Position numbers and translations under genes: made by a program
The notes under the pieces: model-generated
What the model saw: only the letters and a program-made list of their open reading frames with translations
Told to the model about the DNA's origin: nothing
Databases searched by the model: none
From: an uncultured Saprospiraceae bacterium
GTDB lineage: Bacteria; Bacteroidota; Bacteroidia; Chitinophagales; Saprospiraceae
Direction: 5' to 3'
Length of the DNA: 59,039 nt
NCBI GenBank assembly: GCA_937981555.1
Contig: CALJOK010000002.1
Location: 1 to 59,039 of the forward strand
Shown: one piece after another, positions 53,725 to 59,039 of the stretch
Position numbering within the stretch: the first letter of the stretch is position 1
Layout of the letters: the number at the start of each line of letters is the position of its first letter

Positions 53725-53993
53725 AGGTATTGGTATTTTGGATAAATAAAAACGGGGGTGTCGTATATGCTTAGTTCATAAATTATTCCAAATGTTATTT
53801 CGCTTTTAAAAATTATGCATTGTTTTAATGTCGTAAAAAGCTAAAAACGTAAGCTTGATAAGGGTTTGATAATGTTTTTCTCACTTTAAAAAATAATTAT
53901 ATATTTTTTAATCAGCATGCCTTAATTGAAAATTTGGGAGCTAACTTTTTCTTTTTTACCCAAAAAAAACTCTTTTCAAATCAAAAAATGAAA

Positions 53994-54246
53994 GGGGAGT
54001 CCTATGCCGCAAGCGGAAAGTTATGTCAACCAAAGGGAAAGTCCTATGCCGCAAGCGGAAAGTCATAGCAACCAAAGGGAAAGTATTATGACTCAAACGG
54101 AAAGTTATGTCAACCAAAGGGAAAGTTCTATGCCGCAAGCGGAAAGTTATGTCAACCAAAAGGAAAGTTCTATGCCGCAAGCGGAAAGTTATGTCAATCA
54201 AAGGGAAAGTTCTATGACCTAAACGGAAAGTTATAACACCTAAAAC
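53994..54246. repeat. Minisatellite: 12 tandem 21-bp units in alternating 42-bp pairs
   Basis: Twelve units of about 21 bases, each starting GGAAAGT, alternate between GGAAAGTTATGTCAACCAAA(G) and GGAAAGTTCTATGCCGCAAG(C), so the higher-order period is 42. Units 1, 5, 11 and 12 are the most diverged. The second type contains the palindrome CCGCAAGCGG at the junction. Because 21 is divisible by three and the units lack stops in several frames, the array is open on both strands (54004-54222 plus, 53956-54201 minus), but neither frame has a recognisable gene start or context, so I treat it as non-coding. Confidence 0.9.
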
Positions 54247-54431
54247 GGAATTAATAGAAAGTCCTTTATCAGCATGGAGGCCAACCTAATTTTCTTTTAG
54301 AAATGAGTATATTAAATAGACAAACTGAAGATGAAATGGAAGTGCTATAATATTGATTCTATGAGGTCATTGAAATAAGTCTAAATAGCAATGTCATTGA
54401 CAGAAGGAATTTAGTTTAGGCTGTAACTTAT

Positions 54432-54498
54432 AGTTACCTCCTAAATTGTTGGTATTCAATAGATTTAATTTAGGAGGTTACTCGAAGTAACCGCCTAA
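54432..54498 (+). repeat. Three-arm inverted repeat with mutually exclusive hairpins
   Basis: Arm A AGTTACCTCCTAAATT (54432-54447), arm B AATTTAGGAGGTTACT (54467-54482) and arm C AGTAACCGCCTAAA (54485-54498). B can pair with A (15 of 16 bases) or with C (13 of 14, tight CGA loop), not both. The array is about 200 bases upstream of the frameshifted metalloprotease gene. It may be a regulatory RNA switch or the debris of a small element. Confidence 0.6.
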
Positions 54499-54696
54499 AA
54501 TCGCTGAGAAGTATGATGCGAGTGTTCAACTTTTATTCTGGTGGTGGGCATGTTCAATGTCAAACACATACACATATTGTTTTAGTAAATATTAAGACGG
54601 TTGGATTATTTAACATTTGATATTGTGATTCTTGACATTTGTTTTTTAGGTTGCGGGTGATAATAATTTATTTATTTACCCTAAACCGTTTTAGTT

Positions 54697-57064
54697 ATGA
54701 AAAAAATAATAGTTTTCTTTCTTTCTTTCTTTCTTTGCATCCCCATTAAATGCTCAAGGTGATGTATCAGTCTCACATGGCGATGATGGTGATCCTAACC
54801 TAGAGCTATCAACATCAAGCTGTGGATTTAGCATTTCTGATGCGGAATATTTATCTTTTCTACAAAGTATTTCTTTTGATTTAACTAGTTCTAATCCAGT
54901 TCCTACCACAGTTGTTGATTATCAAATTCCTATTCATTTAACATATGTTGTACATGATGATGGAGTTTTTTTTTCAGATAATTTTGATTTTGATGCGGGA
55001 GTTGAGGCAGCTAATGAGGTTTTTGCTCCAGCAGGTATCTCTTTTTATATTTGTGATGTAACTATTCTTCCTAGTACTGATTATACAATATGGGAAGATA
55101 CTGATGGAGATTTAATGGGATTGTATAATTCTCATCATGTGGATGATGCTATTAATGTCTATCAAGTTGAGACTATTACGTATTCTGGTCTAGGAGCTGA
55201 TGGTTTAGCCTGGTACCCTAACTCTAATTTTAATAAAATATTAATTAGGTCAAGTAGTAATATTCCAGATGTGTTAACACACGAATTAGGTCATTATTTT
55301 GGACTAGTACATACATTTCAAGGAGGACAGTCTAAACAATTTGTAAACTATCCTGCAATAATAAATGGAGTTGAATTTGGTTGTAATGAAATTGGGGATC
55401 TCTTATGTGATACTCCTGCAGATCCAGGTAATTGCTCAGGAGGGTGTCTTAGTGGGAGTCTTGGACTACCTATTACTTGTCCTAATTTAGATCCTGCAGG
55501 AGATATCTATATGCCTGATTTTGAAAATGCAATGAATGATAGTTATTGTGAGGATGCTCATTTTTCTCCTATGCAATTAGCTATTACAAACACAACCTTG
55601 ACAACTCATCCAAATCGTATTTTTTTGACTACAACTGAACGAGTTTGTAATTATGTTAATATTGCAGAAAAAGGAAAGGTGGAGTATTATGATTGTGATA
55701 ATGTTCTTAAACCAATTAGGACAATTATTGATTATGAAAATGTGACTGAGTCTTTATCCGGTACAGTACCAAGTTCAGGAAACGATGGATCTTACATTTT
55801 AGGACAATGTGGTATTTTTATCCAGATGGATCATGATTTCATTTTAACTCCTCGAAGAGAACATCCTTCTTGGCCTCATATGCACCATAATAATGGTATT
55901 GACATGTTTGACCTTATTGCATTTCAGGATCATATTTTTGGACTAGACTTATTAGACTCTCCTTATAAAGTAATAGCAGGAGATGTAAATGGGAGTGGTT
56001 GGCTTACAGCATTAGATTTATTAGATATACAAAAAATGATAAATGATAATACGAATACATTTACATTTTCTGTTGGCTCGTATCGTTATGTTCCTAAATA
56101 TTACTTGGAATCTGATCCTAATTTCAATAATGATTTTTTTGATGATTATGATCCATTTAGCGCTGTTTGGACACACCCTACAAGCAATATAACATTGGGG
56201 TATCCCGATTATATGGATAAATTAAATATTAATTTACTGAATCCAGATGTAGTAAATACTTCAACATGGGATTTTATTGCATTAAAAGTAGGAGATGCAA
56301 ATTGTACTGTTTATACTGATCCAAATCAATTTCAAAATACAGTAGTGGAAGATCGATCATCAGAGTATTCTTATGAACAATTAGCCTATTGTCCAAAAGA
56401 AGGAGAAACACTTGATATTACGATAGAATTGAAAAGTAAAGACTTTAGAGCTTACCAACTAGGTCTAAAGTTGGATACTGAAAAGGTGGATTTTCTAGAA
56501 GTAGTAAAGGCGGATATACAAGTAAGTTCTAAAGATTTTGGATTTGGAAATATTGAGGAAGGAAATATTAGAACCTCGTGGTATAGTTCAACTGGGGATA
56601 AAGCAAATGTTGGTAATGATGCCACATCAACCTTATTCAAATTAAGATTGAAAGTTTTAAAGGATTTTTGCAAGTTAAGTGATGTAATCCAATTAGATCA
56701 TCAAGTTCTTCAAAGTCAAGTAATTTCTAGTGTTGGGAATAGGAATTATGATTATCAAATTGTTTTTGGAATTGATGAAACGCGTAGAGGAGATAAATTA
56801 GTCGATCAAAAATTGGAGTTATTTCCTAACCCTTTTCTCAATGAAATTTTCTTACAATTGAATTTAGAAAAAGACACACAAGTTGAATTTATTTTTTCAG
56901 ATGTATATGGACATGTCGTTAATAATATAAAGCAATTGCCAAAAGGAAAGCAAAGCCATAGATTTGAAATGAATTCTTTAAATGATGGAATTATATTTTA
57001 TAACATAATAGTTGATGGAAAAATCTACAATGGAAAATTAGTTAAATTAGCCCAAGATAAATAA
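54697..57064 (+). CDS. T9SS pappalysin-like metalloprotease, frame disrupted at a TTTC repeat (probable phase-variable gene, OFF)
   Basis: From the ATG at 54697 the frame reads MKKIIVFFLSFFLCIPIKCSR and stops at 54762. From 54737 a second frame is open to 57064 with no start codon and a TAG just before it. Deleting one TTTC unit joins them into MKKIIVFFLSFFASPLNAQG, a textbook signal peptide, on a 787-aa protein. That protein has the zinc motif HELGHYFGLVH (H194, E195, H198, H204), then CDTPADPGNC and a likely Met-turn NAMNDSYC, as in M43 pappalysin-like proteases. A dockerin-like module (LLDSPYKVIAGDVNGSG), a cohesin-like domain (GETLDITIELKSKDFRAYQL) and a T9SS type A sorting domain (LELFPNPFLNEIFLQL) follow. 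Everything after the repeat is intact, which argues against an old pseudogene. A sequencing error in the repeat is the main alternative. Confidence 0.85.
54713..54736 (+). repeat. Tetranucleotide tract (TTTC)5 in the signal-peptide codons
   Basis: T + five TTTC + TTT, 24 bases, inside codons 6-14 of the metalloprotease. Repeat number sets the reading frame: four units (or seven) give the full protein, the five seen here do not. Slipped-strand mispairing at such tracts drives on/off switching of surface genes in Haemophilus, Neisseria and others. Confidence 0.9.
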
Positions 57065-57075
57065 TTGTATATTAG

Positions 57076-57108
57076 AGGGACATTCATTGTTGAGTGTCCT
57101 TCTTTTTG
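57076..57108 (+). terminator. Terminator after the metalloprotease gene
   Basis: AGGGACATTCA, loop TTGT, TGAGTGTCCTT pair with two G-T wobbles, followed by CTTTTTG. It ends 17 bases before the next ATG. Confidence 0.7.
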
Positions 57109-57124
57109 TAAAAATCTTATTCCC

Positions 57125-59039
57125 ATGAAAAAATTAAACATACCTCTTCTTATTTTATTATCAATATTTTTATTTGGAAATAATTTAAGTGCAAAAATAA
57201 TCTATGTTGATGCCGATATCACCAATGGTAATCAAGATGGCACTTCATGGGAAAATTCCTATTCCATATTACAATTTGCGATTATCGAAGCCGAATATGG
57301 TGATACTATCTGGGTAGCAGAAGGTACTTACAAACCCACTAACAGTTCATTCCGTACTATTTCTTTTTCTTTAGATAATGGGGTGAAATGGTTTGGCGGA
57401 TTTCAAGGAAATGAAACGGAGTTGTCAGAAAGAGATTATGAACTATACCCAACTATTTTAAGTGGTGACATTGGAATACAAGGTGACAGTACAGATAATA
57501 GTTATCATGTGATTTACTCTTCGGATGCAGATTCTACTACAGTTTTGGATGGTTTTCAAATAAGAGAAGGGCAAGCAGATTTTGGTATATTCAATGATCC
57601 TTTAAGTTTTGGAGGAGGATTGTTGATAGAAGGAGCAATAGGTATTCAAAGTATTCAAATAAAAAACTGCCATTTCTATAAAAATTATGCTTTATTTGGA
57701 GGAGCAGTAAATTGTTCTAACCTTTCTCCTAATTTCGATAATTGTCAGTTTACCGAAAATATAGCAGAACATTCTGGTGGTGCTATATGGAAAAGTGGAA
57801 ATTTTATAGATTCTTCCCAACCATTTATATTTGATTGTTTTTTTGAGAAAAATATAGGAAGAGGAGCTGCTGTGTTTTTTGACAACGTTACAGGTATACA
57901 TAAAGTGATAGATTCTGATTTTTATGAAAATATGAAAATAGATGGCAATGGATTAGGTGGTACTATCGCATTTGATGGTAATCTAACTTCAGAGAATAGT
58001 GATCTAGAAATTGAAGGTTGTCATTTTGAGGGAAGTAAAGCTAGTTATGGAGCAAGTATTTATTATGGTATAATCCCTAATTATTCAGAGGCAATCTTCA
58101 ATTTTAAAATCTATGATTGTTTATTTATGGCGAATCAAAGTAACAGAGGTGTAGTTTCTATAACTAATTTTGGTAACTGTTCTATTAATTTAAAAATTGA
58201 GAATTCAGGATTCGTTCAAAATTGTGTTGATACTACAGGTAGTGTGGTTTATATAGAAAATTCTAGTGATGGAGAAGGAGCATGTAATGTTGATATAGAT
58301 AAAAGTGTCTTCCTAGAAAATGGGTTTTCAGAGCCACAATTGGCGGTAATCGCAGTAATACATAACCGAGCTGATTCTCTAATAATTTCCAATTCTGTTT
58401 TTGAAAAAAATAATCAGAAAATTCTTTATTCTGAAGAAGACGTAGATATAATTAACTCTACCTTTTATAAAAATGGAAATCGAATCATCAGAAAAGTATG
58501 GGATAAAGAGATAAACATCATCAACTCCATTCTTTGGGAAGACCTGCTTCTTGAGGAAATGTTTGATAATGGACCCACATTAATTGATTCAACAAAAGCA
58601 ATGTTAGGTTTTAATATCAAAAATACTTTGCTAAAAAATGATAATTGTTTTTTCAACGGCATCGACTACTGCGGCGACGGCATGCTCTATAACCTCTACC
58701 CAGAATTCCGCGACACCATGAATAACGACCTCTCCCTCCGTTCCTGTTCCCCTGCCATCAACCAAGGCGAGAACATATCTATCGACAGCTTAGGCATTTT
58801 TTTCGACATCGAAGGCAATCCACGTATCTTGGATAATGCGGTAGATTTGGGAGCGTATGAGACGCAAGCATTTGAAGTATTAGTTCCACAGACACAAGAT
58901 GTCAAATGCAACGGCGGAGCAGATGGAGCGATTACTTGGGTGCAACATGGAACTCCACCATTTATTTTTGAGTGGGATAATGGAGTGGTGGCGGGGACAG
59001 CATTTACAGGACTAAGTGCAGGAACATATTCGATAGCGG
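57125..59039 (+). CDS. Secreted parallel beta-helix protein with SprB-like repeat (runs off right edge)
   Basis: From the ATG at 57125 the frame is open to the window end (638 codons, partial). It begins with a signal peptide (MKKLNIPLLILLSIFLFGNN) and the block IYVDADITNGNQDGTSWENS, then DTIWVAEGTYKPT, matching the N-terminus of the beta-helix protein at 20983. Coils such as IKNCHFYKNYALFGGAV, FDNCQFTENIAEHSGGAIW and IEGCHFEGSKASYGAS continue to about residue 500. After ACNP-type choice-of-anchor Q-like sequence (SCSPAINQGENI, DLGAYET) an SprB-like module starts (CNGGADGAITWVQHGTPPF). A T9SS sorting domain is expected beyond the edge. Codon usage changes sharply at about 58650-58830, with many C-ending codons. 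Confidence 0.85.
   Translation, partial: MKKLNIPLLILLSIFLFGNNLSAKIIYVDADITNGNQDGTSWENSYSILQFAIIEAEYGDTIWVAEGTYKPTNSSFRTISFSLDNGVKWFGGFQGNETELSERDYELYPTILSGDIGIQGDSTDNSYHVIYSSDADSTTVLDGFQIREGQADFGIFNDPLSFGGGLLIEGAIGIQSIQIKNCHFYKNYALFGGAVNCSNLSPNFDNCQFTENIAEHSGGAIWKSGNFIDSSQPFIFDCFFEKNIGRGAAVFFDNVTGIHKVIDSDFYENMKIDGNGLGGTIAFDGNLTSENSDLEIEGCHFEGSKASYGASIYYGIIPNYSEAIFNFKIYDCLFMANQSNRGVVSITNFGNCSINLKIENSGFVQNCVDTTGSVVYIENSSDGEGACNVDIDKSVFLENGFSEPQLAVIAVIHNRADSLIISNSVFEKNNQKILYSEEDVDIINSTFYKNGNRIIRKVWDKEINIINSILWEDLLLEEMFDNGPTLIDSTKAMLGFNIKNTLLKNDNCFFNGIDYCGDGMLYNLYPEFRDTMNNDLSLRSCSPAINQGENISIDSLGIFFDIEGNPRILDNAVDLGAYETQAFEVLVPQTQDVKCNGGADGAITWVQHGTPPFIFEWDNGVVAGTAFTGLSAGTYSIA

Follow-up and report, generated by a model that had tools for sequence, protein, structure and literature searches.

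TTTC repeats in signal-peptide codons as a candidate on/off switch of exported proteins in Saprospiraceae

Could genes for exported proteins be switched on and off at random by a short tandem repeat in Saprospiraceae, a free-living family? The repeat-based phase variation found in our literature search is mostly that of host-associated bacteria. As far as the available portions of the sources describe them, the opa genes of Neisseria carry CTCTT repeats in the codons of the leader peptide, where a change in unit number alters the reading frame of a surface protein (PMC3960869), and in Haemophilus influenzae tetranucleotide repeats mediate phase variation, chiefly of surface structures such as lipopolysaccharide (PMC2651432). 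The accessible part of a 2025 review lists repeat-mediated phase variation for the NanH3 sialidase of Gardnerella, and attributes the phase variation of Bacteroides mainly to DNA-inversion systems (PMC11868660). The search found no paper that deals with phase variation in Saprospiraceae, nor any that treats TTTC tracts like those described below, most subscription papers being beyond its reach.

Here, we analyse a stretch of 59,039 bp (the window), which is the whole of contig C2 from the draft genome G000 of an uncultured Saprospiraceae bacterium. The genome comprises 7.25 Mb in 117 contigs, with a completeness of 96.95% and a contamination of 0.66%. Near its end, the window contains a protease gene whose leader and body are in different frames on the two sides of a TTTC tract. 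We consider it likely that this is a contingency (phase-variable) locus, and the TTTC tract at exported-protein genes looks like a recurrent random on/off switch.

The protease locus and its paralogue

The features of the locus are listed in Table 1. The leader frame begins with ATG 54697-54699, reads MKKIIVFFLSFFLCIPIKCSR and ends at TGA 54760-54762. The body frame, with which this ATG is out of frame, ends at TAA 57062-57064. The tract contains no mismatch in its 5.75 units. Its 23-mer occurs only once in the whole window and in none of 100 dinucleotide-preserving shuffles, and a chance origin was thus rejected. As assembled, the body frame has neither a start codon nor a signal peptide, since it is closed by a TAG upstream of the tract and its earliest ATG, GTG or TTG is the internal ATG at 55115; an alternative start was rejected, there being none 5' of that ATG. 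Two of the features by which a contingency locus is recognized are found here, namely a short tandem repeat in the 5' coding region with a unit that is not a multiple of three, and a body that is intact apart from the tract according to the alignment with a paralogue.

Table 1. Features of the protease locus in the window (positions of the window; body residues counted in the protease body).
Feature	Position	Strand	Remarks
Upstream region and leader	54567..54732	+	89% identical to the C60 paralogue
Leader frame	54697..54762	+	ATG, MKKIIV, FFLSFFL core, out-of-frame stop
TAG closing the body frame	54710..54712	+	directly 5' of the tract
TTTC tract	54714..54736	+	23 bp, 5.75 units; codes hydrophobic core of signal peptide; proposed switch
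Protease body	54737..57064	+	775 codons and stop; no start codon before 55115
Peptidase M43-like region	55151..55429	+	body residues 139-231; PF05572, E 6.4e-9, 36.3 bits, cut-off 23
HExxHxxGxxH zinc motif	55280..55312	+	HELGHYFGLVH
Weak dockerin-like stretch	55976..56053	+	body residues 414-439; PF00404, E 0.026, under cut-off
T9SS type A sorting-domain-like C-terminus	56819..57046	+	body residues 695-770; just under curated cut-offs
Next gene	57125..59038	+	off the contig end; SprB-repeat-like, 22.3/28 bits; paralogue of the gene that follows the C60 protease

The body combines a peptidase M43 profile match above the cut-off with the HExxHxxGxxH motif, the two marks of the M43 family (pappalysin-like metzincins). 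On the reading proposed here, the window carries such an M43-type metalloprotease in the off state. At the C-terminus, the T9SS sorting domain is aligned at nearly full length, with 22.7 bits against a cut-off of 27 for PF18962, and 20.6 bits against 23 for TIGR04183 (positions 1-71 of 72). The T9SS component SprA_N is detected in G000 with 494.6 bits and in none of 14 control genomes. The product would probably exit the cell by Sec and then by T9SS. A sequence search against the PDB returned no solved-structure relatives of the body at E <= 0.01.

The original prediction had described two frames meeting inside TTTC repeats, a startless body frame closed by the TAG, a 775-codon body with its lesion only in the tract, and a protease with an intact zinc motif, all of which hold. 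It had also described dockerin/cohesin-like modules, which are not borne out: Dockerin_1 reaches 15.1 bits against a cut-off of 22.9, a weak hint, and the profile search of the body found no cohesin family at E <= 0.1.

A full-length paralogue with 39% protein identity is present on contig C60 of the same genome. It starts with MKKTIVFFLSFFVNPLNSQ and is in frame. A single 4-bp gap at the tract distinguishes the leaders of the two copies, along with substitutions, of which one falls on the tract edge, and the uninterrupted TTTC run is 23 bp in the window and 18 bp in C60. Over the 166 bp that lead to the tract and extend into it, the identity is 89%, despite the diverged bodies. Between the bodies, dN/dS is estimated at 0.545 (0.44-0.68), at a synonymous divergence of about 1.1 changes per site. 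Aligned end to end, the two proteins reveal no further lesion in either body.

The protease gene and the SprB-repeat-like gene behind it form a duplicated two-gene cassette (window 54540-59039 versus L040 on C60). Within this cassette, islands with 75-90% DNA identity per 100 bp are located at about 54540-54740, 57240-57540 and 58640-58940, and the identity between them is only 24-72%, a pattern that gene conversion or diversifying cores might explain. Among 39 other genomes, the listed matches of the window gene are of domain level, with one exception in G022, a distant homologue that aligns at full length (24% identity across 837 columns). Around the earliest ATG of the open frame of this homologue, the 95 bases inspected contain no TTTC tract. 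An alignment scan of the genome_contigs collection, which may omit records near the window's genome, found no orthologue of the window gene.

Other repeats are also present near the locus. In the intergenic region 5' of the protease gene, a 42-bp unit, in turn composed of roughly 2 x 21 bp, is repeated 5.8 times at 53991-54250, and an inverted repeat with arms of 33 nt is located at 54415-54499, similar copies of which (72-92% identity, some partial) occur on contigs C13, C17, C19, C34, C36, C43, C44 and C59.

How could such a tract act? By the genetic code, a TTTC repeat gives the cycle F-F-L-S in all three frames and contains no stop. It is the tract that encodes the hydrophobic FFLS core of the signal peptide, and the switch and the export signal would be one and the same element. 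Gain or loss of units, presumably by slippage, would shift the frame of the remainder of the gene and keep the core, which would survive any number of units because the repeat is stop-free and reads F-F-L-S in every frame. In one frame out of three, the start would read into the protease and yield a product with a signal peptide; otherwise, translation would soon end. We infer that the changes would be reversible in living populations, and that switching would occur within one population of the window organism.

TTTC tracts in Saprospiraceae and their relatives

The setting is not confined to the window. A TTTC tract of at least 22 bp is present in 39 of 398 family genomes, and a tract of at least 15 bp shortly downstream of ATGAAA in 19 of 298. 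The frame survey covered 52 distinct tracts of at least 20 bp among the matches listed or fetched (the window and L001-L128, with alleles kept separate), the 39 genomes having at least as many, and most sequence sources being metagenome assemblies. The tract of the window is among the shorter ones of the long tracts surveyed. On the TTTC strand, and among the matches listed, 36 of the 52 tracts run into an open frame that spans 100 aa or more, compared with one of 52 on the reverse strand. These 36 come from 26 genomes, and 14 of their bodies are cut by the end of the extracted stretch. The other 16 tracts have no long frame behind them, and some of these are located at contig or locus ends.

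An ATG is located within 40 bp upstream of the tract in 29 of the 36 cases, the remainder being three bodies without an open ATG in this range and four stretches that start at the tract. This ATG is in frame with the body in 3 of the 29 and out of frame in 26, equally divided between +1 (13) and +2 (13). By tract length, in-frame cases number 2/7 for 20-24 bp, 1/10 for 25-34 bp and 0/12 for 35 bp or more. Compared with the one in three expected, 3/29 is low (P = 0.004, ATG starts only). However, at five of the 26 off loci a GTG or TTG located 51-72 bp upstream is in frame with the body, and 8/29 are in frame once these are counted (P = 0.33). Consequently, the excess of off alleles is weakened as a finding, since it disappears when the upstream starts are included. 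Among six tracts of only 15-18 bp, four are in frame (C60, G078, G084, G133), L128 is off, and that of G243 is not at a start.

Other units that are likewise hydrophobic and stop-free were rejected as equivalents, having no tie to long frames. In 130 family genomes, TTTA gives 8 distinct tracts with one long frame, and TTTG gives 6 with two long frames, compared with four on the reverse strand. Among the same 130 genomes, 17 contain a TTTC tract (among the matches listed), while 6 contain a TTTA tract and 5 a TTTG tract.

The ends of the signal peptides and the cargo were examined in an earlier set of 34 bodies rather than the 36, in which alleles and contig ends sharing a flank had been merged and L065, L095, L163 and L166 are absent. 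In 32 of them, the stretch after the tract fits a lipobox-like (7) or an A-x-A-Q-like (25) pattern, compared with 17% of 1,700 control stretches taken elsewhere in these proteins; note that both patterns were written by ourselves after viewing examples. For the cargo, several of the 34 bodies being cut at the stretch end, L130 was used in place of its shorter copy L066 and matches were tallied by E-value instead of curated cut-offs. In this way, a T9SS tail is found in 6/34 bodies by Pfam (E <= 0.001) and in 7/34 by NCBIfam (E <= 0.01). The peptidase matches are M43 (2), reprolysin-like (3), M4 (1) and S8 (1), and the others include an ExeM-like nuclease (1), a tyrosinase (1), NosD-like matches (2) and PKD domains (3).

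Some tracts deserve mention in their own right. Those of G251:C71, G019:C250, G019:C254, G091:C34, G269:C773 and G269:C268 are at a contig end or no more than 30 bases from it, which might reflect a mixed unit number in the sample or tracts repeated in the genome. On contig C13 of G000, an 11.5-unit tract (L039:7333-7379) after ATGAAACTT is followed by a 55-aa DUF4249-like fragment (18/28.5 bits), with a LytTR fragment at its flank on the opposite strand; this locus looks like a decayed gene of the same class as the window gene.

In the genome_contigs collection, a search for ATGAAA located 3-30 bases upstream of a tract of at least 22 bp found 39 stretches, which record titles and matching loci assign to Saprospiraceae (17), other Bacteroidota (10) and other phyla (12). 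Long bodies follow 25 of the 39, 7 in frame and 18 not. Outside Saprospiraceae, in-frame cases prevail among the ten long bodies, six against four.

Homologous loci in different frame states are the third feature of a contingency locus. Two Chitinophagaceae stretches, L131 and L163, are 99.9% identical over 6,739 aligned bp and differ by three substitutions and one 4-bp gap. This sole indel is one TTTC unit in the tract: the 29-bp allele is in frame and reads into a 100-codon gene, which the 25-bp allele fails to do. For Phaeodactylibacter xiamenensis, whose genus we take to belong to Saprospiraceae, the tract of 26 bp is in frame, whereas that of 22 bp in the congener G312 is out of frame. 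A contig of P. xiamenensis KD52 matches the family genome G252 with full identity over 3,033 bp. The off body of G312 is open over 142 + 800 codons on two contigs, and dN/dS for this intact off/on pair is 0.215 (0.15-0.30) over 799 codons. In addition, two related genes in one Bacteroidales genome (MAG Tobar13.5m-G9; L151 and L166) carry tracts of 44 and 31 bp, both in frame.

Unit numbers and frame states thus differ between homologous loci, as found for the paralogue, for congeners and for near-identical assemblies of another family. The claim of a phase-variable protease under TTTC control is supported by these differences, and a uniform unit number in relatives, which the original prediction had named as speaking against it, was not encountered. 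The other objection it had named, a lone assembly error, is countered by the recurrence of the same tract setting in other genomes.

Alternative explanations and the decay of off genes

The tract might instead be a hypermutable weak point, where slippage occasionally breaks a gene that then decays, the window gene being a fresh pseudogene. We regard this explanation as unlikely, although decay does occur. Compared with their homologues, the off genes L120, L127 and L122 have an additional in-frame stop, an additional frame change, and an additional frame change plus a missing stretch, respectively, and L115 probably changes frame close to its end; such lesions, which indicate that some off genes decay, were judged solely where a locus had a homologue in the surveyed set. 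Moreover, the second long tract of the window's genome, on C13, precedes a mere gene fragment, and the window gene could be dispensable given its paralogue on C60. The weak-point explanation fits less well with the absence of any other lesion in the window body relative to C60, and with the congener G312, which is off and yet open over all codons examined under the low dN/dS given above. It is also at odds with the Chitinophagaceae pair, nearly identical and differing by a single unit, and with the recurrence of long tracts in signal peptides of genes that are unrelated to one another, where they persist, at varying length, at homologous positions.

The dN/dS values of pairs in which both genes are off, 0.11 (0.07-0.17) for L120/L123 and 0.24 (0.13-0.43) for L127/L122, may reflect selection before loss. 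Since both pairs include further-broken genes (L120, L127 and L122), their low dN/dS was rejected as proof of switching. The other pairs give 0.19 for L065/L130 (134 codons), and 0.27, 0.48 and 0.36 for L115/L116, L071/L084 and L117/L099, the synonymous divergence exceeding 1.5 changes per site in each of these three; L120/L059 is saturated.

Could the off alleles be expressed anyway, by ribosomal frameshifting, transcriptional slippage or unseen GTG and TTG starts further upstream? Such expression would suit the 26 of 29 loci that are out of frame by ATG, and the five with upstream GTG or TTG starts. It is nevertheless very unlikely, since the shift required is +1 in 13 loci and +2 in 13, so that no fixed recoding event fits, and recoding in a fixed direction was rejected on this ground. 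In-frame alleles are also present at homologous loci, and the body frame of the window is shut by the TAG just 5' of the tract.

An assembly or sequencing error in the repeat, with the real gene in frame, is hardly credible. The assembly is a draft of 117 contigs, and several tracts of other genomes lie at contig ends, as would suit an error. But a 23-bp tract is short relative to usual read lengths, and its flanks are unique. An error would also have to account for off alleles at 26 of 29 loci, divided evenly between the two wrong frames, and for TTTA and TTTG tracts lacking such a pattern. The chance that the tracts are meaningless by-products of codon bias in ordinary F/L/S-rich signal peptides is practically negligible, because at most long tracts the ATG is out of frame with the body and TTTA and TTTG behave differently, even if four of the six tracts of 15-18 bp are in frame.

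Meaning and comparison with known systems

If the TTTC tract is a switch, it would operate in a family with large genomes, on exported enzymes and lipoproteins, and the tract itself would be the export signal. The benefit might lie, for example, in sharing the cost of secreted enzymes or in escape from phage or grazers. A broader reading is that environmental Bacteroidota share a lineage-wide phasome, one that is frequent in Saprospiraceae and where TTTC serves as export signal and switch for hydrolases, lipoproteins and surface proteins, labour is divided by slippage, genes that stay off too long decay, and new recruits replace them. Because the same FFLS core arises in every frame, a gene for an exported protein could gain the switch by mere growth of the repeat. 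We hold this broader reading to be evenly poised between right and wrong. The stochastic switching of secreted enzymes becomes testable in a named strain, Phaeodactylibacter xiamenensis KD52. In practice, genes with such a tract are easily misannotated as pseudogenes or assigned an internal start.

As far as the accessible parts of the published accounts allow a comparison, the closest likeness is to the opa genes of Neisseria, where a coding repeat is likewise located in the leader region and the frame is set by the number of units. The TTTC loci differ from opa in the phylum, in the four-base unit, and in serving several unrelated cargo families instead of one adhesin family. With the contingency loci of H. 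influenzae they share a tetranucleotide unit; to our knowledge, a tract that is itself the core of the export signal is not the rule there, unlike at the TTTC loci. The nanH3 locus of Gardnerella, which belongs to a phylum other than Bacteroidota, places an enzyme under repeat-mediated switching, as is proposed for the window locus. Bacteroides, according to the available part of the review, offers phase variation within Bacteroidota as well, but by recombinase-driven inversion, whereas repeat slippage is proposed for the TTTC loci. By analogy, the principle of the mechanism would therefore be that of Opa switching in Neisseria, and what appears to be new is the lineage and the variety of exported proteins.
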